Shown here piece after piece: positions 37,917-61,732 of a stretch of DNA of 64,000 nt. Source of the stretch: Sutcliffiella horikoshii DSM 8719 (GTDB lineage Bacteria; Bacillota; Bacilli; Bacillales; Bacillaceae_I); the NCBI GenBank assembly GCA_001648575.1, contig LQXN01000051.1, positions 1-64,000 on the forward strand. Reading direction: 5' to 3'. The translations under genes were made by a program, and so were the position numbers. Positions within the stretch are counted from its first letter, which is position 1. Every line of letters starts with the position of its first letter. A model generated the notes under the pieces. It did not search any database and was not told where the DNA came from. It was given only the letters and a program-made list of their open reading frames with translations.

Positions 37917-38844
37917 CACTCTCACGTTCCCTTAATTCCTCATATTGCTTCCTACCTTTAATAAGAGCATCAAGCATAGATGTGTTTTTCTTATCGCCAC
38001 GAAGTTTAGAAGCTCGCATTTTAGCAAACTCTGTTTCAGCTTCAGTTTTAACAATATCCCTTTTAACTTTTTGTATAGTGGTCTTAAGTAATTCTTCTTT
38101 TAAAGGCTGTTCTCCATATGATTTTTCAATATCATGTTTTTGTTTAATCGCCTTTACCAATTGATTAGTAATACGCGTCAAAGCCTCTTCTACGTTTAGT
38201 AGATCGTCAATTTTTCGATACTGGGTCTCTTCAATCTGAGTAACAACTAAAGCTGAGGTTTTTACAGGAACCCTCAATTCCACCCCATTTTTTTCTATAA
38301 CTTGAATATCTTTAGAATTTTTTAATTCTTGGAGTACTCTTCGCTCTTTTTCTGTCAGCCCATCTTCAAGCCTTTTAATTCGCATCATCATTCTTCTCTG
38401 ACGAATAGATAGTTCCCTAATCGTAATATCTATTTGATACAAGGGATCTGTCTCTATTTCTTCAAATAACGCTCTCTCTTCGTCGTCCAAATAGTCCCAC
38501 ATAAGAGTTTCATATTCTCCTGTTACTACCGCATTCCTATTCCCTGTAGGCGCAGAACCTCCTGGATTCCCTTTTGCATTCTTGTTACCTGGTGGGGCTT
38601 TACCACCCTTATTACCCTTTGCATTTTGACTTCCCTTAGGGGCACCACGTTTAGGAGCGCTCCTTTTCGATTTAGGAGCGCTCCCTTTCAATTCTGATTC
38701 CCAATTATCTTGTGATTTCCATTTTCGGATGGTTGAACTTGTCACTCCCAAATGTTCAGCAATCTCAACTAATTTCTTTTCTCCGTTGGATTGAATCCAT
38801 ATCTGTTTTGCTTCATCTCTTTTCGGGTCTCTTGGTCTAGCCAT
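37909..38844 (-). CDS. terminase small subunit (YqaS-like)
   Basis: 311 residues. N-terminal HTH (KKLVEIAEHLGVTSSTIRKW), then a low-complexity linker with GAPKGSQNAKGN, PPGNKNAKGN and PTGNRNAVVTGEYE units and a helical body. The arrangement matches the YqaS/XtmA group that recognises the packaging site. Stop overlaps the large-subunit start. Confidence 0.87.
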   Translation of the reverse strand: MARPRDPKRDEAKQIWIQSNGEKKLVEIAEHLGVTSSTIRKWKSQDNWESELKGSAPKSKRSAPKRGAPKGSQNAKGNKGGKAPPGNKNAKGNPGGSAPTGNRNAVVTGEYETLMWDYLDDEERALFEEIETDPLYQIDITIRELSIRQRRMMMRIKRLEDGLTEKERRVLQELKNSKDIQVIEKNGVELRVPVKTSALVVTQIEETQYRKIDDLLNVEEALTRITNQLVKAIKQKHDIEKSYGEQPLKEELLKTTIQKVKRDIVKTEAETEFAKMRASKLRGDKKNTSMLDALIKGRKQYEELRERESDD

Positions 38845-38892
38845 GCTACATCACCTTCCACCTCCGAAGGTATTTAAGTTTGAGTTTGTTTC

Positions 38893-39120
38893 CTAAAAAT
38901 CATCTTTTTGTAGCTCTAAATCTATTTCAATAAGTTTCTTCAAATCATCGACACTTTTAATCTCTATTCTGCCTTCTTGAAAGTCTTTTACCCATCGAGC
39001 TATGCCCGCCTGTATGATTTTTCTATATTTCTCTTTTGATTCAAGGACTCCACTCACTAAGGCGACTTCATGTTCAATCAATAACTCATCTGAATTAGAA
39101 CATTTGTTCTCTTTTTTCAT
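38893..39120 (-). CDS. small phage protein, unknown
   Basis: 75 residues from ATG 39120, with GGGAGG close before it (spacing short). A longer form from 39171 has no ribosome site. Helical, acidic, ending LKKLIEIDLELQKDDF. It lies just before the terminase genes; function unknown. Confidence 0.6.
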   Translation of the reverse strand: MKKENKCSNSDELLIEHEVALVSGVLESKEKYRKIIQAGIARWVKDFQEGRIEIKSVDDLKKLIEIDLELQKDDF

Positions 39121-39220
39121 TGCCTCCCACCGACCTTTCAAATATAATGAAAGTGAGATAGTGGCTTTCATACAACTGTGGCCACAGCTTTTCCACTATC
39201 TCTGCCGATGTTTCGGCTCT

Positions 39221-39253
39221 CTTTAAGGGAGGTGTTCCAGCACCTCTCTTTTT
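39221..39253. terminator. hairpin upstream of terminase region
   Basis: GGGAGGTG, TTCCAG, CACCTCTC stem followed by TTTTTTATTTTG on the + strand, beside the stop of the ParB-methyltransferase gene. The better U-tract faces rightward. Confidence 0.6.
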
Positions 39254-39261
39254 TATTTTGA

Positions 39262-40542
39262 TTAGATCAAGCCTGGCTCTATTCCCGTATGTTCATAGAA
39301 TCGCTTTTTAATAACATCACAAAAAACAGGATCTAATTCTAACGTTCTACATGTCCTTTCAGTTTGTTCACATGTCATTAGAGTAGAACCACTTCCACCA
39401 AACAGATCCACTACAAGATCACTTTTCTTGCTGCTGTTTTTCAATGGAATAGCAATTAACTCTAAAGGCTTTTGAGTAGGGTGTACATACTTGTTTATAT
39501 TTCCTCTACTCACTTCCCAAACTGTTGATGGATCCTGAATTTCTTCTGGCAAACCAGCTTTCCAAACAGTAGATTGTTTTCTATTTCCGTGCCAAGTTGG
39601 TGATTTTCCTTTTTTAAATGCATAGAAAACAGGTTCATGTTGCCATTTGTATTGACTCCAACCGAATGAAGGATAATTTTTCACCCAAATGCATTGTGCA
39701 CGAACTATAATATTGTGCTTATTCATAGCATTCTCAAATTCCCTTTGATAAGAGGAGCCATGAAATACATATATGGCTGCTGTATCTTTCATAAGATGCG
39801 AATAACTTTGAAATACGCCATCTAGAAAGCTGTCAAACTCTTCTGCAGACATATCGTCATTCAAAATCGAATCACGACCAGATTTACTTAACTCTTTGGA
39901 ATCACTTTTAATAGCAACGTTGTAAGGAGGGTCCGTTATAACTAAATCTGCTTTCTCACCATCCATAAGCTTTTCAATATCCTTTATTTTTGTAGCATCA
40001 CCGCAAACTAGCACATGCCTGCCTAGCTTCCAGACATCCCCGTATCTCGTTTCTGGTTCTACAATACTTTCGACAGCTGCTTCAACATCAAAGTTATCTT
40101 CTTCTACTGGTGCATCTATCTCAGAATCAATTGGTAAGCTATCAATTAACTCATTCCATTCAATCTGATCAAAACCAGTAACCTCAAAACCTAATGAGGA
40201 CTCCGATAATTCTTGAAGGATTTCTGCTAACTTATCTAAATCCCAATCACCGCTTATCTTATTTAAAGCGATATTGAGTGCTTTTTCTTTCGTGATATCC
40301 ATATCTACTACAGAGACATCTACTTCTCTAAAGCCATCATTCACTAAAACTTTAAAACGCTGATGACCTCCTACAAGGTTTCCCGTTTGCTTATTCCATA
40401 CCAACGGCTCTACATAACCAAATTCGATTATGGATTTTTTGAGTTTTTCATACTCTGCATCACCAGGTTGCAAATCTTTCCGCGGATTATACGGAGCAGG
40501 ATTTATTTTCTCAATCTTTATTTTTTCTATAATCAAACTCAA
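39262..40542 (-). CDS. ParB-domain fused N6-adenine DNA methyltransferase
   Basis: 426 residues. Residues 1-100 form a ParB/sulfiredoxin-like N-domain (NPAPYNPRKDL, GGHQRFKVLVNDG). Residues 165-420 form an N6/N4 methyltransferase: catalytic DPPY in LVITDPPYNVAI, then AdoMet motif VDLFGGSGSTL near the C-terminus, so beta-type order. HPTQKPLELI precedes motif I. Such fusions are frequent in Firmicutes phages and may mark phage DNA against restriction. Confidence 0.88.
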   Translation of the reverse strand: MSLIIEKIKIEKINPAPYNPRKDLQPGDAEYEKLKKSIIEFGYVEPLVWNKQTGNLVGGHQRFKVLVNDGFREVDVSVVDMDITKEKALNIALNKISGDWDLDKLAEILQELSESSLGFEVTGFDQIEWNELIDSLPIDSEIDAPVEEDNFDVEAAVESIVEPETRYGDVWKLGRHVLVCGDATKIKDIEKLMDGEKADLVITDPPYNVAIKSDSKELSKSGRDSILNDDMSAEEFDSFLDGVFQSYSHLMKDTAAIYVFHGSSYQREFENAMNKHNIIVRAQCIWVKNYPSFGWSQYKWQHEPVFYAFKKGKSPTWHGNRKQSTVWKAGLPEEIQDPSTVWEVSRGNINKYVHPTQKPLELIAIPLKNSSKKSDLVVDLFGGSGSTLMTCEQTERTCRTLELDPVFCDVIKKRFYEHTGIEPGLI

Positions 40543-40548
40543 TACCTC

Positions 40549-40573
40549 CCTAAAAAAACGCCACCGAAGGTGA
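40549..40573 (-). terminator. terminator after the late regulator gene
   Basis: CGTCACCTTCGGTGGCG stem-loop followed by TTTTTTTAG on the minus strand, in the 94-base gap before the methyltransferase gene. Confidence 0.7.
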
Positions 40574-40636
40574 CGTCCGTTCCCGATATATTGTGGAGAG
40601 CCTCAATTAATCTGCCTCCCCGTCCTGCCTTCCATT

Positions 40637-41089
40637 TTACACAGCTTTTTTTTCTAAATTCAACAATGTAACAAAGTGGCTATTTTGGCTCAATTGGTTC
40701 AGAATGGCATCTTTGGTCTTTTTGGCTTGGTTCCGAGAAAAACCCACATGGTATGCAATAGCTCGGTAACTCATTCTGTCTAATAGGCAATCATACACAA
40801 CTCGTTCCAATTCATCTTCCAGGAGCTCCCCCGCCATTTCAAGGGCATAAACCATTTGTTGATATTTATCTAATCGGTTAAGCAAACGCTCTTCTCTTAT
40901 ATCTGCATCCTTTAATTCTGCCTGGCTTTTCCCTTTACTTCCTGAAGGCAAAGACGCTTCATCTCCATATTGAGCTACACCCCAATTTCTCATAGGTATA
41001 GTTTCTCCGTGAATGATCTTTTCAAGTCTTCTCACTTCATTTTTCATCCAGCTGTAGTCACGTATTAACTCCTCAATTTGTCCGACCAT
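40637..41089 (-). CDS. ArpU/RinA-type late transcription regulator
   Basis: 150 residues with a C-terminal sigma-like HTH (YRAIAYHVGFSRNQAKKTKD). Located at the end of the middle genes and before terminase, the usual place of ArpU/RinA activators that switch on late transcription. An N-terminal coiled coil is present. Confidence 0.78.
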   Translation of the reverse strand: MVGQIEELIRDYSWMKNEVRRLEKIIHGETIPMRNWGVAQYGDEASLPSGSKGKSQAELKDADIREERLLNRLDKYQQMVYALEMAGELLEDELERVVYDCLLDRMSYRAIAYHVGFSRNQAKKTKDAILNQLSQNSHFVTLLNLEKKAV

Positions 41090-41101
41090 TCTATTTCCCC
41101 C

Positions 41102-41284
41102 TTATCGTTGTATATAAGCTCCACCCTTTTTACGTACATACCTAGGCCCATTTGTCCCCATGAGCTCTCTTATATCCTGTTCACTCAATTGCTCAGTTTT
41201 TTTTCTTTTTTTCTTTTGGGGCTGCTCTTTGGGTGTATGCTTCTTTTTCCAATTATTTAATTGCTCAGCTAGGCTTCCATTCAT
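41102..41284 (-). CDS. small basic phage protein
   Basis: 60 residues with a Lys-rich middle (PKEQPQKKKRKKTEQ) and SEQDIRELMGTNGPRYVRKK. 12 bases before the regulator gene. Such short genes occur commonly at this spot in Bacillus phages; function unknown. Confidence 0.65.
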   Translation of the reverse strand: MNGSLAEQLNNWKKKHTPKEQPQKKKRKKTEQLSEQDIRELMGTNGPRYVRKKGGAYIQR

Positions 41285-41315
41285 CCTTCTATCCCCTTAT
41301 GAGAAAATAAATACA

Positions 41316-41372
41316 AAAAGAGGACACCAAACAAACAGTAATAACTGCTTGTCTAGTGTCCTCCAGTTGGCT
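41316..41372. terminator. long hairpin, left border of cargo block
   Basis: GAGGACACCAAACAAACAG / CTGCTTGTCTAGTGTCCTC is a long, nearly complete stem. It shares AAACAAAC, TTGTCTAGTG and CCTCCAGTT with the hairpin at 43598-43645. The two bracket DUF3954, the membrane protein and the DUF5677-like gene. Confidence 0.7.
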
Positions 41373-41379
41373 GGTAGAA

Positions 41380-42411
41380 CTATATATAAAAGTTCCTCAT
41401 TGTTTTTTTCACTTCATCTAATTGCTTATCTTTTTTGTAATGTTCGAGAACTGCTACTATCGCGTAAGATAAATATTGAAATGCTATAGATCTAGCTTCT
41501 TCACTTTCTTTTACAATATTATTGAGTACTACCTCACCATCTTTAACAGTTAATTGATTAGTAGCGTTTAAAGTATGCACTTCTTGTGACAGATTTCCAT
41601 AAATGCTATATTCATCTTCGCGACCAATACTTACAGCTAAAGCATAAATACTATTAATCCCTGTTTCTAATGAATACCAAGTAATTTTTTTTACATTTTG
41701 TTTTCTTAATGCTTTTATTTCACTTCTAACCTCTTTAAATGTACTTTGGGAAGATAATCTCGACAATTCGTTTTTAAGCTTTTGCTTAGCATTATTGATT
41801 TCTAAGATTTGATCTCTTTTTTCTGTAATACTCTTTCTCAATCTTTCAATTTCAGTATTATTTGAAATGATGTCATTATGATATTCATCAATCCTATCTT
41901 CGTAACCTTGTATAAATAAATTGGCTTTTTCAGTATCCTTCAAACTACTACAATTTAATCGGGCAAGATCTCTTCTGTTAATATTTTTATTTTTCATCAA
42001 TTCAAAAAACTTATTCTTACTTTGGTAATGTTCTATATTTTCTTCGAATTTATCAATATTCTTTTGTAGCACTTTGATAAAATAATCAAATTGCTTTAAT
42101 TGGCTAACGGCACTTTCTTTTCTATCAAAATAATAATACGCTATCGATCTAAAATCAGAATTGCACTCTATCATAAACATTAAATACCAACAATTTTCAA
42201 TAACACTTCTTGCTAAACTCAGTGTAGGTTCTCCACATTTGTTATTATGCAAGATTTCTATTGCTTTATTTTTCTCGGCTATTTTCCTAAATAAGAGTAA
42301 TGGCATTATCTTTGAAATCAACGGCTCTTTATTGCGTTCCAAAGGGATTTCTCCAAAAATTTCAGCTATAATCTCTTCTGATTTATTAATTAAGTATGCT
42401 TCTGCACTCAA
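41380..42411 (-). CDS. DUF5677-like protein, cargo gene 2
   Basis: 343 residues from TTG 42411; the start overlaps the TGA of a duplicated DUF3954 tail, with GAGGGGG as ribosome site. LARSVIENCWYLMFMIECNS and ISRE-like ends with SIYGNLSQEVHTLNATN resemble DUF5677 proteins. A coiled coil (about 150-235) joins the two parts. Members of this group occur in phage and defence contexts, function unproven. The terminator hairpin follows the stop, so this closes the cargo block. Confidence 0.7.
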   Translation of the reverse strand: MSAEAYLINKSEEIIAEIFGEIPLERNKEPLISKIMPLLLFRKIAEKNKAIEILHNNKCGEPTLSLARSVIENCWYLMFMIECNSDFRSIAYYYFDRKESAVSQLKQFDYFIKVLQKNIDKFEENIEHYQSKNKFFELMKNKNINRRDLARLNCSSLKDTEKANLFIQGYEDRIDEYHNDIISNNTEIERLRKSITEKRDQILEINNAKQKLKNELSRLSSQSTFKEVRSEIKALRKQNVKKITWYSLETGINSIYALAVSIGREDEYSIYGNLSQEVHTLNATNQLTVKDGEVVLNNIVKESEEARSIAFQYLSYAIVAVLEHYKKDKQLDEVKKTMRNFYI

Positions 42412-42455
42412 AATTCTTCCCCCTCATCAAACTTCACCCTATTTACCCTACCCTG
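42408..42455 (-). repeat. duplicated tail of the DUF3954 gene
   Basis: Encodes QGRVNRVKFDEGEEF stop, against QGKVKRVKFDEGEEF at the end of the complete gene (43371-43418). Many differences are silent, so the copies have diverged under coding constraint or come from different phages. The stop of cargo gene 1 (42448-42450) lies inside it, and the start of cargo gene 2 overlaps its TGA. Confidence 0.85.
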
Positions 42456-43374
42456 ATTTATTTCCCTCCACTCCAACAGAAGCCTTGATTTCTCTTTCTC
42501 TTTCTTTTTCCTTTTCCTCTATAATTACATTGAGTATCATTCTAATAAATTGGATTCTTCGTTTCTCTTTAGTAAATTCATGATACACAAAATACACAAG
42601 TGCCAAGAACGGGAAAATATAACCGATTATTTCAATAAGGTCACTTGTATTTTTAAATTGTCCTGAACTTTCTTCCATAAAAATTCTTTCAATGATTGTA
42701 TTAATATTAGTTGGAGTTGTAAATCGATTTGTTACTAAGGACGATGAAAAAAATGTTAGTGATGCAAACAAATATAAACCTGTTTTACTTAGTAAATTAT
42801 TTTTTTCATAAAGACTTAAGTATCCATTGATTAGTTTTAAATCTGCTTCTGAATTAACCCTTTGGAAAATTTTATTTTTTATTTCTTTCAAGTTATTTAA
42901 AACGTCAATTTCGTTTGTATCTTTTAATATTTCATAAAAAAATTTATTATCTACATTTAGATTAGTCATCCAAAAGAATAAAGTATTTTTTGAATTAGTA
43001 GTTGACTTTAGATTCTTTTCGTAACTTTTAATATCTAAACGTTCATAACTCCAAGTAAAAAAATTTAAAATTAGTAATGATATATAAGTTGTAATAATAA
43101 TGGCAGAAATTTTAAAGAAAATAATTGTATATGAATTGAAAAATATTGATAATACACCAGATAATACAAATAGTGATATAGCTATTAAAAGAAATTTTAA
43201 TACAACTCCAATTATTATCCTGACGATATCCCATATACTTTCCTTTAACTTTAAAAATATAACTTTTATATTATCTCCTATGAAGGTGGTGCACCTATGA
43301 ATTGAAATTGAAAAAGAAATTAGTGTTATTACTAGTAATGAAAAAATACTATTAAAATTTTTAACTGCCTTCAG
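42448..43374 (-). CDS. five-segment membrane protein, cargo gene 1, CTG start
   Basis: 308 residues if started at CTG 43374. That codon overlaps the DUF3954 TGA (TTCTGA) and follows GAGGGGG by a normal distance. The frame is open from 43374 to 42448; no ATG, GTG or TTG occurs in it until 42969, which would cut away 135 residues including three membrane segments (NFNSIFSLLVITLISFSISI; KFLLIAISLFVLSGVLSIFF; KISAIIITTYISLLILNFF). Two more follow (LLSKTGLYLFASLTFFSSSL; IIGYIFPFLALVYFVYHEF), then a charged C-terminus. Very AT-rich. Unknown family; superinfection exclusion is a plausible guess. Confidence 0.7.
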   Translation of the reverse strand: MKAVKNFNSIFSLLVITLISFSISIHRCTTFIGDNIKVIFLKLKESIWDIVRIIIGVVLKFLLIAISLFVLSGVLSIFFNSYTIIFFKISAIIITTYISLLILNFFTWSYERLDIKSYEKNLKSTTNSKNTLFFWMTNLNVDNKFFYEILKDTNEIDVLNNLKEIKNKIFQRVNSEADLKLINGYLSLYEKNNLLSKTGLYLFASLTFFSSSLVTNRFTTPTNINTIIERIFMEESSGQFKNTSDLIEIIGYIFPFLALVYFVYHEFTKEKRRIQFIRMILNVIIEEKEKEREREIKASVGVEGNKSG

Positions 43375-43571
43375 AACTCTTCCCCCTCGTCAAACTTTAC
43401 TCTTTTCACCTTACCTTGGTGCGTAACAATCTTTGTTTCACCATGAATAGGTAAATTTGTAATTTTAGCTACGCCATCACAAACAACAATGGCAAAGCTT
43501 CCTTTTAGTTCCATTATATCAATTTCTAGTCTATTTGTACTTCTATTAATTTCTACGTTTTCTAATCTCAT
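43371..43571 (-). CDS. DUF3954-like small phage protein
   Basis: 66 residues, IMELKGSFAIVVCDGVAKIT and GKVKRVKFDEGEEF. The shape (short beta protein ending in KV-R-V plus acidic tail) is that of DUF3954. GGAGG precedes the ATG. A second, different DUF3954-like gene is at 45149-45328. Its last 15 codons recur at 42408-42455. Confidence 0.7.
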   Translation of the reverse strand: MRLENVEINRSTNRLEIDIMELKGSFAIVVCDGVAKITNLPIHGETKIVTHQGKVKRVKFDEGEEF

Positions 43572-43597
43572 TTAATTTCCTCCAGTAAATAAAATAA

Positions 43598-43645
43598 AGA
43601 GCACTAAACAAACGCTAAGCGTTGTCTAGTGCCCTCCAGTTCTTG
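43598..43645. terminator. long hairpin, right border of cargo block
   Basis: AGAGCACTAAACAAACGCT / AGCGTTGTCTAGTGCCCTC forms a long stem, with CCAGTT behind it. It is related to the hairpin at 41316-41372. On the leftward transcript it lies between 43681-44157 and the DUF3954 gene. Confidence 0.7.
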
Positions 43646-43680
43646 GTTAGGCTATTATTCGGTTTTTTTCGTTATGTGCA

Positions 43681-44157
43681 TTAATCCTCGTTATGTTCGT
43701 ATGCTTCTTGCACCATATCGAAATCGTCAGTAGGTAAAACATCTTTTGCAACTTGACACCAATATCCTAAATCTTGTACTGCTTCTACTAATTCACTGAT
43801 TGCGTGTTCTTGGTCAATTTCTACTCCATCCAGAGTCCAATGGTCATCTCTTCTTTCGAGCGTGTGAGCGCATTTCTTATGGAGACATACTTTGAAGTGT
43901 GGTTTTGCATTGTAAGAAAGTTTAGTGCCGTCATACCAGTTTGCAAACCCTTCTCCGCAAGCTAACGCTATAATGCAAAATGTTTTATCATCTCCGTATT
44001 TCAAAGCAGTTTCAATTGGTATTCCTGCTTCGGTTAACAAGTATCTGTTTTCTTCATTATTCTCAACCAAAGCATAAGCATTATCTCCCCCTTGACTTTC
44101 AAGAATCTCCATTTGATTCAGAAAATGTAACGCTCTTTCCTTTAAAACTACACTCAT
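43681..44157 (-). CDS. phage protein of unknown function
   Basis: 158 residues, acidic, soluble; CIIALACGEGFANWYDGTKL and CLHKKCAHTLERRDDHW are distinctive, with four cysteines, three of them in the central third. GGAGGAAT precedes ATG. No family recognised. Confidence 0.65.
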   Translation of the reverse strand: MSVVLKERALHFLNQMEILESQGGDNAYALVENNEENRYLLTEAGIPIETALKYGDDKTFCIIALACGEGFANWYDGTKLSYNAKPHFKVCLHKKCAHTLERRDDHWTLDGVEIDQEHAISELVEAVQDLGYWCQVAKDVLPTDDFDMVQEAYEHNED

Positions 44158-44188
44158 TTTTTATTCCTCCTTCTATTGCGCTATAAAT

Positions 44189-45030
44189 CTAATACGCAAC
44201 CGCGTTTTTATATCTTGATTCCTCTACGCAATATTCTAGTAAGTTCGCCCTTACTAAAGCATCTGCGAATGGTGGCGGTACTGCATTTCCGCATCTGGCG
44301 ACTTGCTGTGTCTTTGGATATGGTTTTTCTTCATAATCTCTATCGATGATATAATTAGAAGGAAATCCTTGACCTCACTTGCAGTTCTCCAAGGTTTTAA
44401 CTTACCAGCTTGAACCTCCAAACTTTGCGGATCACCATGAGTCGGTTTGGGCCACTCGATTTTCTTACCATCACACCTAGCAACCATAAAGAATCTTTTT
44501 CTTATCGTTGGTGCTCCAAAATCACAATCTTTCAGTTCTTTAAATTCCACCTTATATCCTAACGCTTCAAGAGTTTTCACGAAGGATTTAAAGGTTTTTC
44601 CTTTTTGTTTATCATCTGGATACCCTTCAGGTGTTAGTGGTCCCCATGTTTTGAATTCTTCTACGTTTTCAAGCATTATTACTCTTGGCTTTACCGCTAT
44701 TGCCCATTTAACTGCAATCCATGCCAGTCCTCGAATTTTCTTTTCGACAGGCTTGCCACCCTTGGCTTTACTAAAGTGTTTGCAGTCAGGCGAAAACCAG
44801 GCTAACCCTACCTTTCTGCCTTTTACCGCTTTTACTGGATCCACATCCCACACTGATTCACAATAATGCTCTGTATCCGGGTGGTTTGCTTTATGCATAG
44901 CAATTGCAGCTGGATCATGATTAATCGCGATATCAACTGATAATCCTGTAGCCATTTCAATGCCTGTACTAGCACCGCCACCACCAGCAAAATTATCGAC
45001 TATGATTTCTCTAAACAAGTCTAATTGCAT
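44189..45030 (-). pseudogene. C5 cytosine methyltransferase with deleted target domain
   Basis: Opens IIVDNFAGGGGASTGIEMAT (motif I), WFSPDCKHFSKAKGG (catalytic Pro-Cys), LENVEEFKTW (motif VI) and IRKRFFMVARC (motif VIII), then breaks after WRTASEV. The +frame downstream is the true C-terminus: KTQQVARCGNAVPPPFADAL (motif X), to TAG at 44189. The expected target recognition domain, some 150-200 residues, is missing and the join is out of frame, so the enzyme should be dead. The 258-residue frame to 44254 is only the shifted reading. Confidence 0.8.
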
Positions 45031-45089
45031 TTTTATCTCCTCTAGAAATGTTTTATTGTATAAGAAAATTTTTCATTGGAACAATAAAA

Positions 45090-45147
45090 GACAGAACAAG
45101 AGCAGCTAACCTCCAAGTCCTACAACACAGAAGCTGCCTTGTTCAAA
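45090..45147. terminator. long hairpin before the methyltransferase
   Basis: GAACAAGAGCAGCT / AGCTGCCTTGTTC with a long loop. It lies between 45149-45328 and the methyltransferase pseudogene. Confidence 0.6.
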
Positions 45148-45148
45148 T

Positions 45149-45328
45149 TTATATTTTCTTTTTTAACAAGGTTTCTAACCGATCAACCTTCCCGTCAAAG
45201 ACAACAACATTTATCTCGCCATAATCAGGAAGGTCATGCTCTATTAATTTACCGTCTTTCACGACATACATTTTTTTGTTGTTCATCAAATCAATTTCTG
45301 CGGTCATTTTTTCTATATCTAAGTGCAC
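45149..45328 (-). CDS. DUF3954-like small phage protein, second copy
   Basis: 59 residues, MHLDIEKMTAEIDLMNNKKM, VVKDGKLIEHDLPDYGEINV, VVFDGKVDRLETLLKKKI. GTG 45328 follows AGGAGGGG by five bases. The alternating beta pattern and MTAEID start suit DUF3954. Too short for usual length cut-offs but well supported. Confidence 0.75.
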   Translation of the reverse strand: MHLDIEKMTAEIDLMNNKKMYVVKDGKLIEHDLPDYGEINVVVFDGKVDRLETLLKKKI

Positions 45329-45408
45329 CAGGACCCCTCCTAATGGTATAATTAGTTGTCGGGTTAGGAGAGATTCTGGCCATGCCTCTGGGTTTTCTCA
45401 GAGGTTTT

Positions 45409-45570
45409 TTATTTTGGTTCCATTTCATCCAACATTCTGAGGATATATTTGATATCTTCCATCCATCTTTCAGGAGATTGTAGCTTCTCCCTTTCCTCTT
45501 CAACTTTCAAGCCCAAATCCACAACCTTTGATTTCAGGTGAACGATTTGTCCTTTAGTTGCTAAATCCAT
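45409..45570 (-). CDS. small phage protein, unknown
   Basis: 53 residues, MDLATKGQIVHLKSKVVDLG and ERWMEDIKYILRMLDEMEPK-like end. GAGGTGAAG lies just before ATG 45570. Helical, possibly coiled coil. The hairpin CCTCTGGGTTTTCTCAGAGG directly follows the stop. Confidence 0.65.
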   Translation of the reverse strand: MDLATKGQIVHLKSKVVDLGLKVEEEREKLQSPERWMEDIKYILRMLDEMEPK

Positions 45571-45648
45571 TTTCTTCACCTCAAGAGCATTATTCGCCTT
45601 AGAAGGGAATTAAATTCTGAAATCTCTCTGTTTGGTCGAATTGAGACA

Positions 45649-45858
45649 TTACACAAACGTGACTGCTTCTTCTTCATCTTCGTCATATACTGCGATCCAA
45701 GGAACTGTTACTAGTTTCTTTCCACAACTTCCACACTCTATTTTTTCGTAATGATAAAACGTTTTTTTGTTATCTATTGCATCCCTTAAATCGTAATCTG
45801 CATAATCAAATCCCATTGGGTTTCCACATTTTGGACATTTGAAGTTAATATTGGCAAA
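45649..45858 (-). CDS. small zinc-ribbon phage protein, start unclear
   Basis: About 69 residues in an open frame: FANINFKCPKCGNPMGFDYA, KIECGSCGKKLVTVPWIAVY and an acidic end EDEEEAVTFV. The two CxxCG knuckles form a zinc ribbon. GGAGG is present, but the codon at the expected place is TTT and no ATG/GTG/TTG follows until inside the ribbon. It may use a non-standard start or have lost it. Confidence 0.55.
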   Translation of the reverse strand, partial: FANINFKCPKCGNPMGFDYADYDLRDAIDNKKTFYHYEKIECGSCGKKLVTVPWIAVYDEDEEEAVTFV

Positions 45859-45889
45859 CTTATTCCTCCTTCACATTTTCGGTCAACAC

Positions 45890-46117
45890 TCACTTCCGCC
45901 CAAAAGTAGCCTTAATCACATTGCCATTCACTTCATAGAAAGGATCTCTTTCCTTCGGGGTGGAGTAATTCTTTTGAGCTTGCTTGTCACGCTTAAATTT
46001 CTCAAAATATCCATTACACATAGCTGTGATCTCTGTCTTTGAAAATCCTTCATTCTGAAACATGCCGACGGCCATGGCCATATACTGTTCAGCCTTCAAT
46101 TGCATTGTAGCTTTCAC
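45890..46117 (-). CDS. phage protein of unknown function
   Basis: 75 residues if started at GTG 46117, which overlaps the previous stop (GTGA) behind AAGGAG; an ATG at 46105 (MQLKAEQYMAMAVGMFQ) is the alternative. Contains EGFSKTEITAMCNGYFEKFK, a small helical domain, and a basic end. Function unknown. Confidence 0.6.
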   Translation of the reverse strand: MKATMQLKAEQYMAMAVGMFQNEGFSKTEITAMCNGYFEKFKRDKQAQKNYSTPKERDPFYEVNGNVIKATFGRK

Positions 46118-46464
46118 CAGCCAATCAACTCCTTCTGTAACCTTTCCGTAAGCTCCTGGAACCATTCTTTGTCATTAGAGTCTAATGCAATGTCTATTAG
46201 GGCCTGTAAGTCCTCTCCTTCTAAAGAAACAGGAAGTATAGATAAGTTTTCAAAGTTCATACATTCTAGTCGCATAATTTCTTTACCGCTGCCATGCTTC
46301 AAAAATAAAACACTTGCTGACTCTTCCTCTGAATGTACTACTGTGACAAATCCAATTGATCCTAGTGCAATAGGGTTTATATCTCTACTAATATGGGAAA
46401 TACTAACCCAATCTCCTTTTTTGAAATTCTTTTGATTTAAAAAGACTGCTTCACTTGCATTCAT
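46114..46464 (-). CDS. phage protein of unknown function
   Basis: 116 residues. KGDWVSISHISRDINPIALG and FVTVVHSEEESASVLFLKHG suggest an SH3-like beta barrel, followed by an acidic helical end. Directly follows the YopX-like gene by two bases. Family not recognised. Confidence 0.65.
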   Translation of the reverse strand: MNASEAVFLNQKNFKKGDWVSISHISRDINPIALGSIGFVTVVHSEEESASVLFLKHGSGKEIMRLECMNFENLSILPVSLEGEDLQALIDIALDSNDKEWFQELTERLQKELIGW

Positions 46465-46466
46465 GA

Positions 46467-46841
46467 CTACTCTCCTCCTGTTTCCAGCAAATGAGGATGC
46501 TCATGGATATTTCCAACTACGACAAATTCGTCACATTGAAATAGTTCATCCACAAAACGTATGTCGTTTATTACTTCAATGGACTCGATTTTCTCTCCGC
46601 TTTTAATGGTTGTAGTAACCGACCAAATTATATCTCCTTCGAATACCTTCTTTTCTTTCTTATCTTCCATTCTCGTAAACTGGCCGATCGTCTCTTTATC
46701 CACCAATGTTTGCGGAACATTATTACCGATAAAGTTTTGTGGAATGATGTAATGAGATCCCGTTCCAAGTTTAACGAGATTACCATAGACCCAATCACCA
46801 GTCATAACGTCCATTCCGCGAAACTCAACTACTCTTGGCAT
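46467..46841 (-). CDS. YopX-family phage protein
   Basis: 124 residues. EFRGMDVMTGDWVYGNLVKL, KVFEGDIIWSVTT and VVGNIHEHPHLL are the signature of the YopX family from SPbeta and many phages. Role unknown. GGGGGG lies before ATG. Confidence 0.87.
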   Translation of the reverse strand: MPRVVEFRGMDVMTGDWVYGNLVKLGTGSHYIIPQNFIGNNVPQTLVDKETIGQFTRMEDKKEKKVFEGDIIWSVTTTIKSGEKIESIEVINDIRFVDELFQCDEFVVVGNIHEHPHLLETGGE

Positions 46842-46881
46842 CGTTGGCCCCCCTCTTTCTCCATATTGATTTCAACTTAAG

Positions 46882-47334
46882 TTAGAAAAGGCTTAGTTGC
46901 TCCAAAATTTCTGGCTTATCTTCCTGATATTCAAACTCTGAAACATCTGCTTGTTCACTTTCAACTACACTTACTATTTCTTCAAAATCCTTAAACCATT
47001 CTTTTGGATAGCAACCCATTAACTTCTGTTGCTCTGCGTCCTTGTAAAAATAACAATGGGTTTTGCTGGGCCTGATAAAATATCTCTGGAAGAGTTTAGT
47101 TTTGTAGCCCGGCTCCGTGAAAATCAATTCAGCAGAATATAACTTGTCCTTATGTAGTTCCATCTCGTTGTGTTTTAATTGGAATCTCTCTGCGTGATAA
47201 CAGCCTTTGTGAGCGCCCTGATTAGGGTATCTCGATACATAGTAATGTTCTGGACCATTCGGAAAGAGATAGTAATTCTCTCCTTTAGACAGCACGTCAG
47301 CGCTATCAGCTTTTACGCAAATTCCTTGCAACAT
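46882..47334 (-). CDS. phage protein of unknown function
   Basis: 150 residues from ATG 47334 (MLQGICVKADSADVLSKGEN). The upstream 15 in-frame codons overlap another gene and lack a ribosome site of their own. Aromatic-rich, with HCYFYKDAEQQKLMGCYPKE and a C-terminal LEQLSLF, a beta-clamp-binding-like motif (QLSLF) often found at the C-terminus of proteins tied to replication. Confidence 0.65.
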   Translation of the reverse strand: MLQGICVKADSADVLSKGENYYLFPNGPEHYYVSRYPNQGAHKGCYHAERFQLKHNEMELHKDKLYSAELIFTEPGYKTKLFQRYFIRPSKTHCYFYKDAEQQKLMGCYPKEWFKDFEEIVSVVESEQADVSEFEYQEDKPEILEQLSLF

Positions 47335-47473
47335 CTCCTCGCCTTCTTTCTTGGCGTATCTTGGGTATTTCTGTACCACCTAGCCTCTTACAGTCCGTTC
47401 CATATCGGCTTGCACATTTTCTATATTGGGAGCAGCGTGTTTGACACGCCACATCCCTGTCTTCTTTCTTCAT
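47306..47473 (-). CDS. cysteine-rich small phage protein
   Basis: 55 residues, MKKEDRDVACQTRCSQYRKC, ASRYGTDCKRLGGTEIPKIR and a basic tail. Four cysteines (10, 14, 20, 28) suit one zinc site. It starts right after the stop of a 13-codon mini-frame (MKGVIVIADDRTE) whose ATG overlaps the stop of the upstream gene, so translation may be coupled. Its last codons overlap 46882-47334. Confidence 0.65.
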   Translation of the reverse strand: MKKEDRDVACQTRCSQYRKCASRYGTDCKRLGGTEIPKIRQERRRGDVARNLRKS

Positions 47474-47511
47474 TCATTCCGTACGATCATCAGCAATAAC
47501 AATTACACCTT

Positions 47512-48300
47512 TCATACAATTTCTTTTTCCTTCACCATGTTAGAAAGCTGGTTACTTGCATTTCGGATGGTATTTAGCGTTTCTAGAAAGTTAGGAGGAA
47601 CAGAAGTGTTCAATGCCTTATCCAATTCCACTTCAAAGTTCCACCTATAAGGGCTCATTCCATGCTTTCTCATAATTTCAATAACTTTTTTATTTTGCTC
47701 TAATGCTTCACTATTTTTCTTGGCTTCTCGTTCAAGCTTTTCAAGTCTAGAATGCATGTCATTCATTTCTTGAATGAGTTTAGATGAGACTCTACGACCT
47801 AGTTCACGTTTATCCGTTTTATCTTCCACATACTTTTCTAGGCACTCTCGTTTGCTGCTAAAGAAAGGATGCCTATCATTGTCCATCCGACTTAGGATGA
47901 TGTAATAAAACATATCTGTTGGCATTTCTATGTGGCGGAACTTACTCTTTTTTCTGGTATACAAAGTTTTTTTCTCAGGGTTGAACCAAATGAGCCCTAC
48001 ATCATCTGGCAGTTCATTTGGCTCAATTAACCCTTTGGGACAAGCAAAGTAGAAACGATGACAATATTCTTTGTAGATTGGCCATTTATCATCGTTAAGA
48101 AAATCTTGACGAGAAACTTTCACCTCGTACCCAGTTAAGCAAGGTTTAGACCAGCTTTTTTTTATAGCCAAAGCATCCATAATTGCTAAATTATCATTAC
48201 TCCATGTAGATCCATTCTTTACTTCAGTTAAAAAGAAATCACTTTGGTGTTTAATACCGAGAGCATGTTTGACTTCATGGGCAGAAACTTTCACGTTCAC
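47512..48300 (-). CDS. MmcB-like nuclease-fold protein
   Basis: 262 residues. CLTGYEVKVSRQDFLNDDKW then YCHRFYFACPKGLIEPNELP and DVGLIWF are the MmcB/DUF2034-like restriction endonuclease-fold pattern (E-x-K with following D). The C-terminal half is a coiled coil. Four-base overlap with the RusA gene. Probably acts in phage DNA repair or recombination. Confidence 0.72.
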   Translation of the reverse strand: MNVKVSAHEVKHALGIKHQSDFFLTEVKNGSTWSNDNLAIMDALAIKKSWSKPCLTGYEVKVSRQDFLNDDKWPIYKEYCHRFYFACPKGLIEPNELPDDVGLIWFNPEKKTLYTRKKSKFRHIEMPTDMFYYIILSRMDNDRHPFFSSKRECLEKYVEDKTDKRELGRRVSSKLIQEMNDMHSRLEKLEREAKKNSEALEQNKKVIEIMRKHGMSPYRWNFEVELDKALNTSVPPNFLETLNTIRNASNQLSNMVKEKEIV

Positions 48301-51028: not shown

Positions 51029-51719
51029 ATACTCTACGTCCTGTGAGGGCCATAATTTCTTCCTTGAACTTCACTTCATCACTATTGGAATCGCTTAAGT
51101 GAAGCAGCCATATTTCTTGTACCTTGGATAGATCATTTGCATTTAGGAACTCTTTGACATTCTCTAGACTAAAATGAGACTGCAAAAGTCGTTTTTTCAT
51201 GACAGCTGGGACAGAACCGTCCAAGATATTCTGATTCAATATTTCCATCGAGTAGTTACACTCCACTAGGATGTGTGTAAGCCCTGTGAACTTGTATTTG
51301 ATGTAGTAGGTATCTGTAGCGAATAAAAGCTTTTCACCAGCGTTATTTACGAGCAGAAAGCCATATGGCTCACTCACATCGTGTTGAACATCAAAGGGTA
51401 AAATCGTCCAGGTACCGATAGTAAATGGCTGTTGGGCCTTTACGTGTTTTATACGGTGATGATTTAGTCCAATTGCGCCTGCAGTTCCAGTTGACATGTA
51501 GCAATCAATCCCTGCTTTTAGAACGTCTCTTATGGCTTTGCAGTGGTCGCCATGCTCATGTGTGATTAAGCACCCTGCGACCTCTGACATTTGAAAATTA
51601 AAGCCTTTTTGAATCTCTCGATAGTTGATGCCGCACTCCAGTAAAAGGGGTGTATGGCCGTCAGTAACCCGGTAACAGTTCCCCTTACTACTGGATGCAA
51701 GTGCTGTGATCTCAATCAT
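51018..51719 (-). CDS. MBL-fold metallohydrolase of the recombination module
   Basis: 233 residues from ATG 51719, overlapping the recT stop (TAATG). ALASSSKGNCYRVTDG opens a metallo-beta-lactamase fold with metal motif THEHGDHCKA, later LFATDTY and a C-terminal LLHLSDSNSDE. Of the YycJ/WalJ-like branch, members of which are 5'-3' exonucleases. Adjacent to RecT, so it may prepare single-stranded DNA. Confidence 0.82.
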   Translation of the reverse strand: MIEITALASSSKGNCYRVTDGHTPLLLECGINYREIQKGFNFQMSEVAGCLITHEHGDHCKAIRDVLKAGIDCYMSTGTAGAIGLNHHRIKHVKAQQPFTIGTWTILPFDVQHDVSEPYGFLLVNNAGEKLLFATDTYYIKYKFTGLTHILVECNYSMEILNQNILDGSVPAVMKKRLLQSHFSLENVKEFLNANDLSKVQEIWLLHLSDSNSDEVKFKEEIMALTGRRVYVP

Positions 51720-52621
51720 TACCAACCAGGTCCTTTAGGAGGGGTATCAAATAATTCCTCTTGATGATTTCCGTCATTTTCCGTTCGCCCATCAATTATT
51801 TCAGGTTGTTTTTCTAAAGGCTTCCTTCCCTTTACATCAAGGAGCTCTTTATTGGCGTTTTGGTCAATTTCCTTTTGTGCAGCGTATACCGGATTAACTT
51901 CCTTGCGATCGTCTTCATATTCATTTTCTGTCGATCGGTTGATGGCATCTACAAGTAAATCACTGTCATCAGATGTGTTTATGAAGGCTTTAGCAGCACG
52001 ATTAATGACTGTACGTTTCGCCATTTCCTGTGGGAATTTCTTGTGTACTCCTTGACTAGTCTTGGATTGCCCCCATGATTCATCGATCTCTTTACGAGTC
52101 ATAACTGTTAGTAACTCTTCATCGTCGTTGGTTTTAACCACCGCGTAAGCCCCTAAAATTTCGTTATCTCTATTCAGAAATTTTGTTTCATGCTTTAATA
52201 GTTTTTCACGACCACCTGCAACCTCGTAATCAAACACATCCCCTTCAAATATCACATTTGCCCAAATATCTTTTACATTCGATAATCGTTTAAGAACTGC
52301 TTGAGTGCCAAAATAGGACCGATTTAATTGCAATTGATTGCCGTAAACTATGAAATAGCATTGTGTTTTGGCAGGGCTTAAACCCTGTGTAACCATATCC
52401 AATAATGTGTTCGCGATTGATTCTCTTGTACAAACACTTAATGCTGGCTTACCTTCTCGATCTTTTACTTCTTGTAGTTTGAAAAAGGCACTCTTTAACG
52501 CATTACTAGCGTTGTAATTAGGAGGCAGGACCAATCCATCGTCCTGCAACCTAGTTAAGCTCTTGTTCACATCATCCGTGATGTCTTTTTGAATGATGGA
52601 TAGTTGATTTTGGCTACTCAT
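51719..52621 (-). CDS. recT: RecT-family single-strand annealing protein
   Basis: 300 residues from ATG 52621, overlapping the ATPase stop (TGATG). MVTQGLSPAKTQCYFIVYGN and LQLNRSYFGTQAVLKRLSNV are core RecT sequences; AKRTVINRAAKAFINTSDDS follows. The acidic, Pro-rich C-terminus ends PPKGPGW. Anneals complementary strands in phage recombination. Confidence 0.92.
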   Translation of the reverse strand: MSSQNQLSIIQKDITDDVNKSLTRLQDDGLVLPPNYNASNALKSAFFKLQEVKDREGKPALSVCTRESIANTLLDMVTQGLSPAKTQCYFIVYGNQLQLNRSYFGTQAVLKRLSNVKDIWANVIFEGDVFDYEVAGGREKLLKHETKFLNRDNEILGAYAVVKTNDDEELLTVMTRKEIDESWGQSKTSQGVHKKFPQEMAKRTVINRAAKAFINTSDDSDLLVDAINRSTENEYEDDRKEVNPVYAAQKEIDQNANKELLDVKGRKPLEKQPEIIDGRTENDGNHQEELFDTPPKGPGW

Positions 52622-54597
52622 CAAATTGCCTCCTTATGGTTCGGATACTCTACACGCAGCACCTTATCTTGCTCTGAGACTACCAACTGAATAACTTGGG
52701 AACCTACATCGATTAATCGTGTCACCGCTTCGCTGTTATCTACAAATATTGGTGCAGATACACCGTAATGCTCAGATAGAGTGTTGATGATATCTAAGCC
52801 AACGTTTATTCTTGCAGCATTATTTAACCCGCTTGAATACGGAACACCATTGTATGTTGTTTCGCATATTTCTTCTAAACCGCCATTGATGTTGGTTTTG
52901 AACAAATTGAATCGGGCATATTTGAATTTGGAGTTTATTTTCTCCTCCAGCAAGTTGACTTTAGAACGGATAAATTCTTCTGTAAGGAATAGTTCCTGTT
53001 CCAATTTTTCAAACTCTGTAGCTAATTGTTTTTCCAGATGCATTAATTCTTCTATCCGCTTATTTGACTGATCTACCGTTACAAACTTTGCTAGATCGCT
53101 TTGAATGGCAAGCCTTTGTTCTTTCAGACTCTGAACCTCTTTCTCTACTTCTCTAATGGAAGTTTGAGCATCTAGTCGAATTCTGTCTAATTCGCTTGTA
53201 CAGTCTAATTTCTCCTGTAATTTTGTCGCATAGGACTGGTTGTCCATGATGTCCACGACAGAACCTTCTAGTAATTTAAGTTGTTCGTTCAGTTGAAGAA
53301 GACTTTCCTCTTTTTCAGAAATGAGGGAACTATTATTCTCGTATTCTCCGGTTAGTTGCTCATTTTCGGATAACAAGGATTCTTTCTGGGTTTTGATGCG
53401 TCTACCAGATGTATCAATCTCTTCAAGTTGGTTACTCTTTTGAAGATTAAATTGTGCTAACGCTTTTTCCCTTGTGACTGAAACTTGTTCCTCTGGGAGA
53501 ACCTGACCACATGTTGGACATTCGCACTCATCGTTATGGACAAACTCTTTTTCGTTTAATTCCGTCCATTCTTGCCTCAGTTGTTGCAATTTCTTTTCCG
53601 TGGAAGTAATACTGTCATCATTGAATTTTTTCTTTTGTCTTAGATTAGATTGTTTGGACTCCAGCAGAGAGATAGCTGACTTTTCCTCTTGAATTTGCGC
53701 TTTCAGCTTGTATAATTCATCCTTCGTGCCCGCTTCATGTTGCTGTCTTATTTGTAGGAGCTCCAACTCGATTTCTTGAATTTCTCTCTGTTTCGTTGAA
53801 ATAGCATTTCCATTTCGGATGTTGCTGATAATGTCTTGTTTTTCATCAATTTGCGAAGTGATTGTTTCAATCTGTTCCTCTAATGATGACTTTTCCAAGC
53901 CATCAACCGAAGGAAGGTTATGCTCTATTTCATCAATTCGGACTGGTATTTTGTCTAACTCTTTGTTTATCTCTGCCCTACGTGCAACAATAACTTTTCG
54001 ATGATTCTCAATTGTGCGACCTTTTAGGATAGTCGGGAGTGAAGCAAGCTCTTTGTTAGAAGCAATTACATCTTCCTCTGTTACTTCCCCGCAAATTTCC
54101 AATAACGTGTTGCGTCGATCCTTCCAATGTAATTGATCATTGAAAAACGATGGGCTAGTTAACAATTTGAAAATATCCTCGTTCACGATGGACTCTACCT
54201 GGTCTAAGTAATCTTTCTTTTTAGAAGGCACACCATCAATGTAATAGTCAGTTGTATGACCTGAGAACTGTTTCTCTGCCCCTCCTCGCTTTTTGGTCCA
54301 TTTCTCCGAATAGACTTTCCGAAGAGTAAGCTTTTGATCAGCTACTGAAAATGTAGCCTCAACCTCATGTTCGAGTCCGTGCAACTCTTTCCCCTTATTC
54401 AATGTTTTGATAGAGAAGTCTTTTTTGTTCTGGCTATCCTTATCAAAGAGCAACCACACAAAGGCATCGAATAGAGTCGTCTTTCCAGTAGCATTGTCAC
54501 CGTATACTTTTACATTTTCACCGTGCACCTCAAGGGCGAATGACTTCACACCTTTGAAGTTTTTTAGCTCTAACCGATGAAGCGTAATGTTTTTCAT
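52621..54597 (-). CDS. SMC/SbcC-like ATPase of the recombination module
   Basis: 658 residues. Walker A VYGDNATGKTTLFDAFVWLL near the N-terminus, two long coiled-coil arms joined at a zinc-hook CECPTCGQVLP (about 366-376), and a C-terminal Walker B-like VSAPIFVDNSEAVT. The architecture is that of Rad50/SbcC but short. With RecT and the MBL protein it probably replaces a RecE-type nuclease module. Confidence 0.85.
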   Translation of the reverse strand: MKNITLHRLELKNFKGVKSFALEVHGENVKVYGDNATGKTTLFDAFVWLLFDKDSQNKKDFSIKTLNKGKELHGLEHEVEATFSVADQKLTLRKVYSEKWTKKRGGAEKQFSGHTTDYYIDGVPSKKKDYLDQVESIVNEDIFKLLTSPSFFNDQLHWKDRRNTLLEICGEVTEEDVIASNKELASLPTILKGRTIENHRKVIVARRAEINKELDKIPVRIDEIEHNLPSVDGLEKSSLEEQIETITSQIDEKQDIISNIRNGNAISTKQREIQEIELELLQIRQQHEAGTKDELYKLKAQIQEEKSAISLLESKQSNLRQKKKFNDDSITSTEKKLQQLRQEWTELNEKEFVHNDECECPTCGQVLPEEQVSVTREKALAQFNLQKSNQLEEIDTSGRRIKTQKESLLSENEQLTGEYENNSSLISEKEESLLQLNEQLKLLEGSVVDIMDNQSYATKLQEKLDCTSELDRIRLDAQTSIREVEKEVQSLKEQRLAIQSDLAKFVTVDQSNKRIEELMHLEKQLATEFEKLEQELFLTEEFIRSKVNLLEEKINSKFKYARFNLFKTNINGGLEEICETTYNGVPYSSGLNNAARINVGLDIINTLSEHYGVSAPIFVDNSEAVTRLIDVGSQVIQLVVSEQDKVLRVEYPNHKEAI

Positions 54598-60437: not shown

Positions 60438-61577
60438 TTGGCCTCTTATCAAAAATACAAGACAAAGCAAGGCGAAAAGTGGATGTTTAAATTGATTGTA
60501 GGTATAGATCCTGGTACTGGCAAAAAGATCATGACTACTCGAAGAGGTTTTAAAACTAAAAAGGAAGCTCAAGCTGCCTACCTTAATTTGAGACAAGAAA
60601 TAGAATCTGGACTCCATGTGAAACAATCATTAACTTATGAGGATGTGTTTAAAGAATGGTGGGGTATCCATTCCCGAACAATTAAGCCAAGTACTATATA
60701 CTCCAAACAGTCTAAGTTTAGAAAGCATATTTTACCTAGGTTTGGAAAGTTAAAAATCAAAGATATTTCTAAAGGGTATTGTCAGAGAATGATTAATGAC
60801 TTATCCAATGAAATTGACTCTGTAAATGATATAAAAATTCAAGCTAGCCTTGTATTTAAATATGCAATCAAAATGGATTACATTTTAAAAAATCCAATGG
60901 AATATGTAACAATTCCTAAAAAGGAAGAATCTTTCTTGGCAAAATCAGAAGAAAGAAATTATTGGACAAAGAATGAAATAAGAGAATTTCTGATTCTGGC
61001 AAAAAAGCATATGTCACAACAAAACTTCATCATGTACTATTTACTTATTTACACTGGGATGAGAAAAGGTGAACTTATTGCCTTGACCTGGGATGACATC
61101 GATTTAAATGAGCAAACAATTAATATAAATAAGACCATGTTTTTTGAAAAAGGAAAGGAAATTATTCAAACTGCAAAAAAATATGCTTCCAATAGAAAGA
61201 TAGACATCGATAGTCAAACCGCCAAACATCTTTTTAATTGGAGAACAAAGCAGAAAGAAGCACTTTTGGCAGATGGGATTGTCAGCAAGCCCCCCAACGT
61301 CCTCCTAAGAGCCAATATGCGCCCAATTAGACTTGCGTATCCAAATGAGCTTTTAAACAGTTTTATGACTGTATATGACCTTCACAGAATTACTATTCAT
61401 GGATTACGCCATACCCACGCATCTATGCTTTTTGAAGCAGGTGCAAGTATAAAAGAAGTACAAGTTAGATTAGGTCATAAAGATATACAAACAACCATGA
61501 ACATATATACTCACGTTACAAAAACAATGTCTAAGAAGACTGCTGAAAACTTCCTGAATTACATGCAATTAGAATAA
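60438..61577 (+). CDS. int: phage integrase, tyrosine recombinase
   Basis: 379 residues from TTG 60438 behind GGAAG. N-terminal AP2-like arm-binding domain (EKWMFKLIVGIDPGTGKKIM, RRGFKTKKEAQAAYLN), core-binding SAM-like domain, then catalytic domain: Arg in YTGMRKGELIAL, HGLRHTHASMLF (H-x-x-R), LGHKDIQTTMNIYTH with the nucleophile Tyr. Ends 88 bp before attR. Inserts into the 3' end of rpsI. Confidence 0.95.
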   Translation: MASYQKYKTKQGEKWMFKLIVGIDPGTGKKIMTTRRGFKTKKEAQAAYLNLRQEIESGLHVKQSLTYEDVFKEWWGIHSRTIKPSTIYSKQSKFRKHILPRFGKLKIKDISKGYCQRMINDLSNEIDSVNDIKIQASLVFKYAIKMDYILKNPMEYVTIPKKEESFLAKSEERNYWTKNEIREFLILAKKHMSQQNFIMYYLLIYTGMRKGELIALTWDDIDLNEQTININKTMFFEKGKEIIQTAKKYASNRKIDIDSQTAKHLFNWRTKQKEALLADGIVSKPPNVLLRANMRPIRLAYPNELLNSFMTVYDLHRITIHGLRHTHASMLFEAGASIKEVQVRLGHKDIQTTMNIYTHVTKTMSKKTAENFLNYMQLE

Positions 61578-61581
61578 AATA

Positions 61582-61600
61582 GGTCAAAATTTGGTCAAAA
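61582..61600. promoter_or_regulatory. integrase arm-type sites, right
   Basis: GGTCAAAA at 61582 and 61593, direct repeats 11 bp apart just after the int stop; mirrored by the pair at 9191 and 9202 on the left side. Confidence 0.6.
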
Positions 61601-61615
61601 CTTAATTTTCCCCAT

Positions 61616-61653
61616 AAAAAAGCCCTTCAAACATAACTGCTTGAAGGGCTTTA
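61616..61653 (-). terminator. phage-supplied rpsI terminator
   Basis: AAAGCCCTTCAA / TTGAAGGGCTTT hairpin with a U-tract TTTTTTAT on the minus strand. It closely matches the displaced host terminator at 8972-9007, so the phage brings a working terminator for the gene it interrupts. Confidence 0.8.
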
Positions 61654-61664
61654 AGTGTTGATCT

Positions 61665-61732
61665 ATTAACGTTTTGAGAACTGAGGTGCACGACGAGCAC
61701 CCTTAAGTCCGTATTTTTTACGCTCTTTCATA
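61665..61732 (-). repeat. attR core within the functional rpsI 3' end
   Basis: 67 of 68 bases equal attL (9020-9087). Here the core is joined to the host 5' part of rpsI, so the reading frame is unbroken. The one difference (61699) is silent. Confidence 0.93.

Follow-up and report, generated by a model that had tools for sequence, protein, structure and literature searches.

A probable two-border cargo slot behind the xtrA gene in prophages of Bacillaceae and relatives, with a candidate start signal in the xtrA tail

Why should the last codons of a small prophage gene occur twice in close succession, with a different gene beginning on the stop codon of each copy? This arrangement is found in a 64,000-nt stretch of DNA from Sutcliffiella horikoshii, referred to here as the window. 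The original prediction explained it as a modular slot in which new genes enter behind a fixed tail that supplies translation signals. All elements of the slot lie on the minus strand, and the features of the locus are as follows.

43371..43571, minus strand: xtrA (PBSX_XtrA, PF17356, Pfam E 1.2e-24), a complete ORF of 66 aa whose 3' end forms the slot's left border
43371..43388, minus strand: tail 1, with GAGGGGG, a 7-nt spacer and a CTG start overlapping the TGA stop (sequence; conserved in 142 loci)
42448..43374, minus strand: cargo A, 308 aa, predicted membrane protein, CTG start (ORF; four slot relatives)
42408..42455, minus strand: tail 2, a truncated second copy of the xtrA 3' end, with GAGGGGG (42419-42425) and TTGA (repeat comparison)
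41380..42411, minus strand: cargo B, 343 aa, DUF5677 (PF18928, Pfam E 1.7e-16) plus coiled coil, TTG start on tail 2 (Pfam; ORF; homologue)
41310..41380, minus strand: right border, box GTTCTACCAGCCAACTGGAGGACAC plus a 20-pair terminator hairpin (sequence, alignments, terminator scoring)
about 43590..43650, minus strand: diverged box and hairpin upstream of xtrA (sequence, repeat search, terminator scoring)
40637..41089, minus strand: sigma-factor-like regulator downstream of the slot (phrog_36, E 7e-12; phrog_1058), presumably Xpf-like
51719..52624, minus strand: RecT recombinase of the same prophage, a candidate for cargo exchange (PF03837, E 6.5e-42)
45149..45328, minus strand: DUF3954/XtrA-like gene (DUF3954, E 6.9e-5, just under the Pfam cut-off)

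The gene at 43371-43571 had been described as a full DUF3954-like gene. It is indeed complete, but its family is PBSX_XtrA, which it matches with 86.3 bits (curated cut-off 29.7) over profile positions 1-64 of 64; the DUF3954-like gene is its neighbour at 45149-45328. DUF3954 (PF13128) as a name for 43371-43571 gave no match at E 0.01. The idea that DUF3954 is the slot adaptor had to be abandoned, with Shine-Dalgarno-like tails in 0/30 loci of DUF3954 proper and overlapping ORFs in 2/30. The other structural claims stood. The second tail copy at 42408-42455 comprises 54 nt with 80% identity (45 nt at 82% by ungapped extension), and this 54-nt repeat is the longest direct repeat reported in 38,000-48,000. 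The two copies encode nearly the same peptide, HQGKVKRVKFDEGEEF versus NQGRVNRVKFDEGEEF, with four silent sites over the last nine codons (compared by eye). Both cargo starts overlap the tail stop, as CTG of CTGA and TTG of TTGA, and each lies 7 nt behind a GAGGGGG that may act as ribosome site. The stop codon of cargo A falls inside the second tail copy, and position 41380 is shared by the cargo B stop codon, as its last base, and the box, as its first. Terminator scoring gave a 20-pair stem followed by a T run at 41319-41364, and the hairpin at about 43590-43650 is a diverged, weaker relative of it, so that related hairpins do bracket the block. The second cargo is DUF5677-like, as had been proposed.

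The surrounding operon reads, along the minus strand, RecT, replication protein, DnaC-like ATPase, RusA, the 45149-45328 gene, a C5-methylase and the gene at 43681-44157, followed by the diverged box and hairpin, xtrA, cargo A, tail 2, cargo B, and the box with its terminator. Beyond the slot terminator are a small ORF, the sigma-like gene, a ParB/methyltransferase gene and terminase. The interval 43590-45328 (minus strand) holds the DUF3954-like gene, the C5-methylase, 43681-44157 and then the diverged box and hairpin, which may mark the end of a previous unit; the whole resembles an older unit of this type. Of the window genes covered by the scan, a part of the total, only one is an integrase, at 60438-61577. 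The genes beside it in 60438-62516 are, we assume, rpsI and rplM, and the prophage may therefore sit next to that operon. An Rfam search of 38,000-48,000 returned a sub-threshold miRNA match only. Promoter-like sites in 41000-45400, scanned at the window locus alone, numbered 19 versus 17.2 in shuffles. Because there is no excess, the cargo is probably read from the upstream operon; some readthrough of the weak diverged hairpin before xtrA is then assumed.

Loci for comparison were gathered by protein patterns, 70 from genomes and 79 from viral contigs. One of these patterns was the tail peptide, which biases this sample. A less biased sample consisted of 100 of about 150 PF17356 places in 397 genomes of the order, most of them among the strong and more complete matches, and XtrA was present in 97 of the 100 places fetched. 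The 203 tail-bearing sequences, window included, were reduced to 142 loci by collapsing those sharing 700 nt downstream; L071, whose XtrA is identical to that of the window, is inside the 142. The list of cargos fell from 107 to 105 after removal of the empty slots L109 and L237, and L058 was omitted from the control list.

The left border, GAGGGGGAAGAGTTTTGA, consists of the 18 nt at the end of xtrA and doubles as the coding sequence for the C-terminus of XtrA. In the 142 tail loci XtrA stops with TGA (94), TAA (33) or TAG (15). An ORF of at least 60 codons starts from a TTG or CTG overlapping the TGA in 78 of the 94 TGA loci, versus 1 and 2 in the other two frames. The HMM-drawn sample gave the same picture: the tail was found in 59/100, with TGA in 39, and 33 of these 39 show the overlapping ORF, with none in either of the other two frames. 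Neither the overlap nor GAGGGG occurs in the 41 HMM-drawn XtrAs without this tail (0/41 for both). Information content over the 78 overlapping loci is mostly 1.3-2 bits up to the TGA, outside variable codon positions, and drops at this point to at most 0.5 bits in the next 30 nt. Unrelated genes are joined at the same base behind the tail, as the original prediction held. We propose that the xtrA tail would supply a Shine-Dalgarno sequence with its spacer, together with a TTG start that shares bases with the XtrA stop; any in-frame ORF joined behind the TGA would then be translatable without signals of its own. The alignments of homologous cargos count against such a start. Both partners are aligned from residue 1 in only nine of 32, and in 15 of 32 the alignment sets in at residue 6 or beyond on either side. 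Self-contained cargo is admitted to the slot as well, which also counts against it. Thirty-one non-empty loci lack an ORF close to the tail, and 18 of these have a sense ORF of 80 codons or more that starts 46-191 nt behind the XtrA stop; more than one ORF of this kind is present in 12 of the 18, and 12 have TAA as the stop. In L062, L065, L066 and L068, xtrA is frameshifted with the tail intact, and the long cargo ORF is intact where examined.

Codon usage points to selection on the DNA of the tail. Glycine is encoded by GGG in 116/142 tails versus 183/569 of the other XtrA glycines, and the glutamate preceding this glycine by GAG in 123/140 versus 181/661 of the other XtrA glutamates. Where an ORF starts at the tail or close to it, GAGGGG is present in 87 of 105 loci, versus 18 of the 37 other loci (Fisher p 1.3e-4), and it occurs in none of the six empty slots, among which two pairs are near relatives. 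Against the tail as a cargo start, it is kept in 18 of the 31 non-empty loci without such an ORF. Calculated pairing with the anti-Shine-Dalgarno sequence gave mixed results. It also counts against such a start that the consensus ranks only 33rd of 64 synonymous codings, the strongest of which shift the pairing nearer to the TTG; with the next two codons held at GAA GAG, however, no Glu-Gly choice is better than that of the consensus. Conservation of the tail peptide extends to loci where no cargo overlaps and is thus partly explained by protein function; the tail is under two constraints.

The arrangement is also present in an isolated phage. Among 50,697 phage records, two matched, both of the same phage, Aeribacillus phage AP45. 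Its XtrA ends in GATGAGGGGGAAGAGTTTTGA and is followed by a 185-aa ORF from the overlapping TTG, then by box and terminator and by a sigma-factor gene. The deposited start of this cargo (L323:3695-4252) lies 78 nt inside the overlapping-TTG ORF and drops 26 residues, including a hydrophobic stretch. It serves as a warning for the annotation of slot cargos.

The right border was searched as GTTCTACCAGCCAACTGGAGGACAC with up to 6 substitutions, and was found behind 102 of the 105 cargos. Its commonest distance from the cargo stop is 0 or -1 nt, and in 30 loci it lies at least 60 nt away, which leaves room for further cargo. In 18 aligned loci the box folds as an invariant CCAG/CTGG hairpin with a terminator stem behind it; 5 of 20 pairs have changed on both sides. 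A strict box pattern gave 40 places in the 397 genomes (0 for the reversed control). When the lists are compared by eye, 38 of these places have an XtrA match no more than 7 kb away; at the other two the box also stands directly after a stop codon. Six empty slots (L029, L109, L194, L205, L237 and L254) consist of the XtrA stop, 3-18 nt and the box. With its intrinsic terminator, the box would keep the transcript from running on into the sigma-like and terminase genes. Of the 30 DUF3954 loci, 8 carry a similar hairpin after the stop codon of the gene. In these eight (among L293-L322) a short hairpin and a GGACACTRA-like, box-like terminator follow within 90 nt, with no cargo between. From this we infer that a small gene followed by a hairpin is the older arrangement.

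Between these conserved flanks, XtrA and box, related prophages carry unrelated genes, and in this respect the slot matches an accessory hotspot. Single-linkage BLASTP sorts the 105 cargos into 62 families (64 among 107 before the two empty slots were removed), with a mean G+C of 28.7% versus 37.4% upstream. The exchange is well seen in L132, L133 and L137. Their XtrAs are 97-98% identical, their cargos have no detectable similarity, and from the first base of the box they are again 91-94% identical over 306-1501 nt. When same-record copies alone were collapsed, the nearest XtrA neighbour carried a homologous cargo in 7 of 109 loci: 4/8 at XtrA identities of at least 95%, 2/23 at 90-95%, 1/28 at 85-90% and 0/50 below. 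The same statistic on the set deduplicated by downstream sequence was 1/105, a skewed value since this deduplication favours different cargo; 7/109 is the redone figure. The window's two-gene order is not fixed elsewhere, and the similarity at 42408-42455 persists in alignment.

Tandem tails recur in other loci as well. Searching with the 18-nt motif and up to 3 mismatches, we found 29 extra tails on the sense strand, in 28 of the 142 loci, and none antisense. They are concentrated in the slots: box-bearing loci have 23 in 168,482 slot bases, versus 6 in 856,754 flanking bases (2 in 434,106 upstream and 4 in 422,648 downstream). Tail duplication is thus more than chance. Of the slot tails, 22/23 open at least 60 codons, and some short ones may be convergent ribosome sites. 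Thirteen loci, window included, were inspected in detail; the stretch similar to the locus's own xtrA measures 18 to 178 nt. Nine of them (L021, L067, L111, L143, L193, L218, L270, L273 and the window) have a second or third tail whose TTG starts an ORF of 164-462 aa. L052 and L228 have a second tail with TAA at its end, and in L054 the ORF has just 61 aa. By eye, the order in L021 and L052 is cargo 1, decayed box, tail, cargo 2, box.

Taken as a whole, we consider it probable that these prophages of Bacillaceae and relatives have a two-border cargo slot, with the tail as start, homologous exchange and stacking. Cargos would be swapped whole by homologous, mismatch-tolerant (RecT-type) recombination in xtrA and in the box and downstream sequence. 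An imperfect crossover near the resident tail would place an incoming xtrA and cargo before a truncated resident tail, which would still work as a start site, and two cargos would then be stacked, as in the window. RecT-like enzymes have a reported tolerance for diverged DNA (PMC3945230), and with a RecT in the window prophage this makes such an exchange plausible.

Two other explanations must be weighed. Ordinary phage mosaicism would need nothing more than a variable end of the early operon, at which the joints preserving XtrA and the terminator survive and a TTGA overlap is tolerated. Overlapping stop and start codons are indeed common in phages, and loci with an empty slot or with self-contained cargo still encode the peptide DEGEEF. 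This explanation does not account well for a GAG GGG silent-site bias confined to the tail, nor for overlaps so unevenly divided between the frames (78/94 versus 1-2). XtrAs and DUF3954s with other tails are without the overlap, and the extra tails of about 18-45 nt are too short to encode XtrA, with ORFs opened by 22 of 23. We thus give mosaicism a small share of the probability.

A dedicated cassette exchange, in which a recombinase would act at the box hairpin (or at XtrA) in a somewhat integron-like manner, appears still more improbable, to the point of being very unlikely. It would suit the fast turnover, the sharp joints at both ends and the tail-cargo-box units in series, as well as a box that is more invariant than a terminator requires and is linked to XtrA in 38 of its 40 places. 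No recombinase gene was found beside the slot among the window genes scanned, and the sequence shared on both sides lets general recombination suffice. The point of truncation varies among the stacked tails, as would be expected of illegitimate joints rather than of a fixed site. An ambitious version of the slot reading would make XtrA and box a gene-capture platform, in which a coding universal start and a recombination-prone hairpin hold stackable single-ORF weapon cartridges traded by Bacillaceae phages; we regard this as speculative and rather unlikely.

Which genes, then, occupy the slot? Cargo A has no Pfam match. Of its four slot relatives, three are 18-20 residues shorter at the end and the fourth reaches nearly as far as cargo A, and the 3' end of cargo A was thus possibly replaced in the joint. 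A DUF5677 homologue of cargo B, 43% identical, likewise starts at TTG. It lies at L291:1495-2520 (minus strand) in a genome without XtrA match, and its TTG stands behind GGGGAAATTTTGA, possibly a tail remnant; the 18-nt tail was not found there with 3 mismatches. The search of viral contigs for homologues of cargos A and B returned a single contig, 100% identical and probably the window's own phage. AlphaFold models of cargos A and B had a mean pLDDT of 57 and 55, too poor for a fold search.

Among the 105 cargos, Pfam at E 1e-4 gave 26 member-family matches and left at least 79 cargos without any. Counted per family, so that families may overlap, the matches include putAbiC (4), UPF0489 (3), RelA_SpoT (2), MrcB_N (2), DUF5677 (2), HNH, PIN_8, PIN_12, Apea-HEPN, SIR2_2 and single others, to which PADLOC added AbiP (2), AbiC (2), ThsA, PDC-S25, PDC-S33, an RT-associated HEPN and weaker ones. 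About a dozen are matches to abortive-infection, SIR2, HEPN, PIN, RelA-like or McrB-like families. A strongly hydrophobic 19-residue segment is present in 75 of the 105 cargos, within the first 60 residues in 65. The 91 upstream control genes belong largely to replication, repair and modification, among the 25 of 40 families listed. PADLOC is swamped by methyltransferases in the control, among the 25 of 175 families listed, and therefore does not discriminate; the defence reading stays likely. With many cargos small-membrane-like and some abortive-infection-like, their likely use is in competition between phages.

The slot has features in common with several known systems. Morons are extra genes between conserved phage genes that are closed by a terminator, as here, but they bring their own promoter, whereas the start signals of the xtrA slot would lie in the resident gene and the window locus has no excess of promoter-like sites. 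Integron gene cassettes are likewise unrelated ORFs in one place, stackable and each with a conserved hairpin. Unlike them, the slot has a coding left border, and no integron integrase was found among the window genes scanned. Defence hotspots of prophages and satellites, as presented by Rousset et al. 2022 (PMC9122126), carry different, partly anti-phage genes in a fixed place of related prophages, for which homologous recombination was proposed. The Bacillus hotspot of that report is flanked by a regulator and a peptidase, close to the integrase, in other phages and another place than the xtrA slot. In contrast to these hotspots, the flanking gene of the xtrA slot appears to give the ribosome site and start, and the cargo is often a single ORF. 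A further parallel is found in boundary sequences, short conserved ends of exchanged modules in phage mosaicism, said in PMC3029335 to be missing at most joints. At the xtrA slot border sequences are present on both sides, and one of them is coding and may double as a start signal. In the open-access literature searched, with most subscription journals outside the search, we found no description of an xtrA/yqaO slot or of a start codon given by a flanking gene.

The slot thus offers a clear case of conserved linkers at both ends of a mosaic module, the kind of sequence said to be absent from most joints (PMC3029335). It also makes testable whether one protein-coding tail starts the translation of unrelated genes. 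Since the 18-nt left border and the 25-nt right border are both searchable, what lies between them can be taken as cargo, at least 79 of 105 times without a Pfam family, and the slot is a ready-made trap for unknown genes of phage competition.
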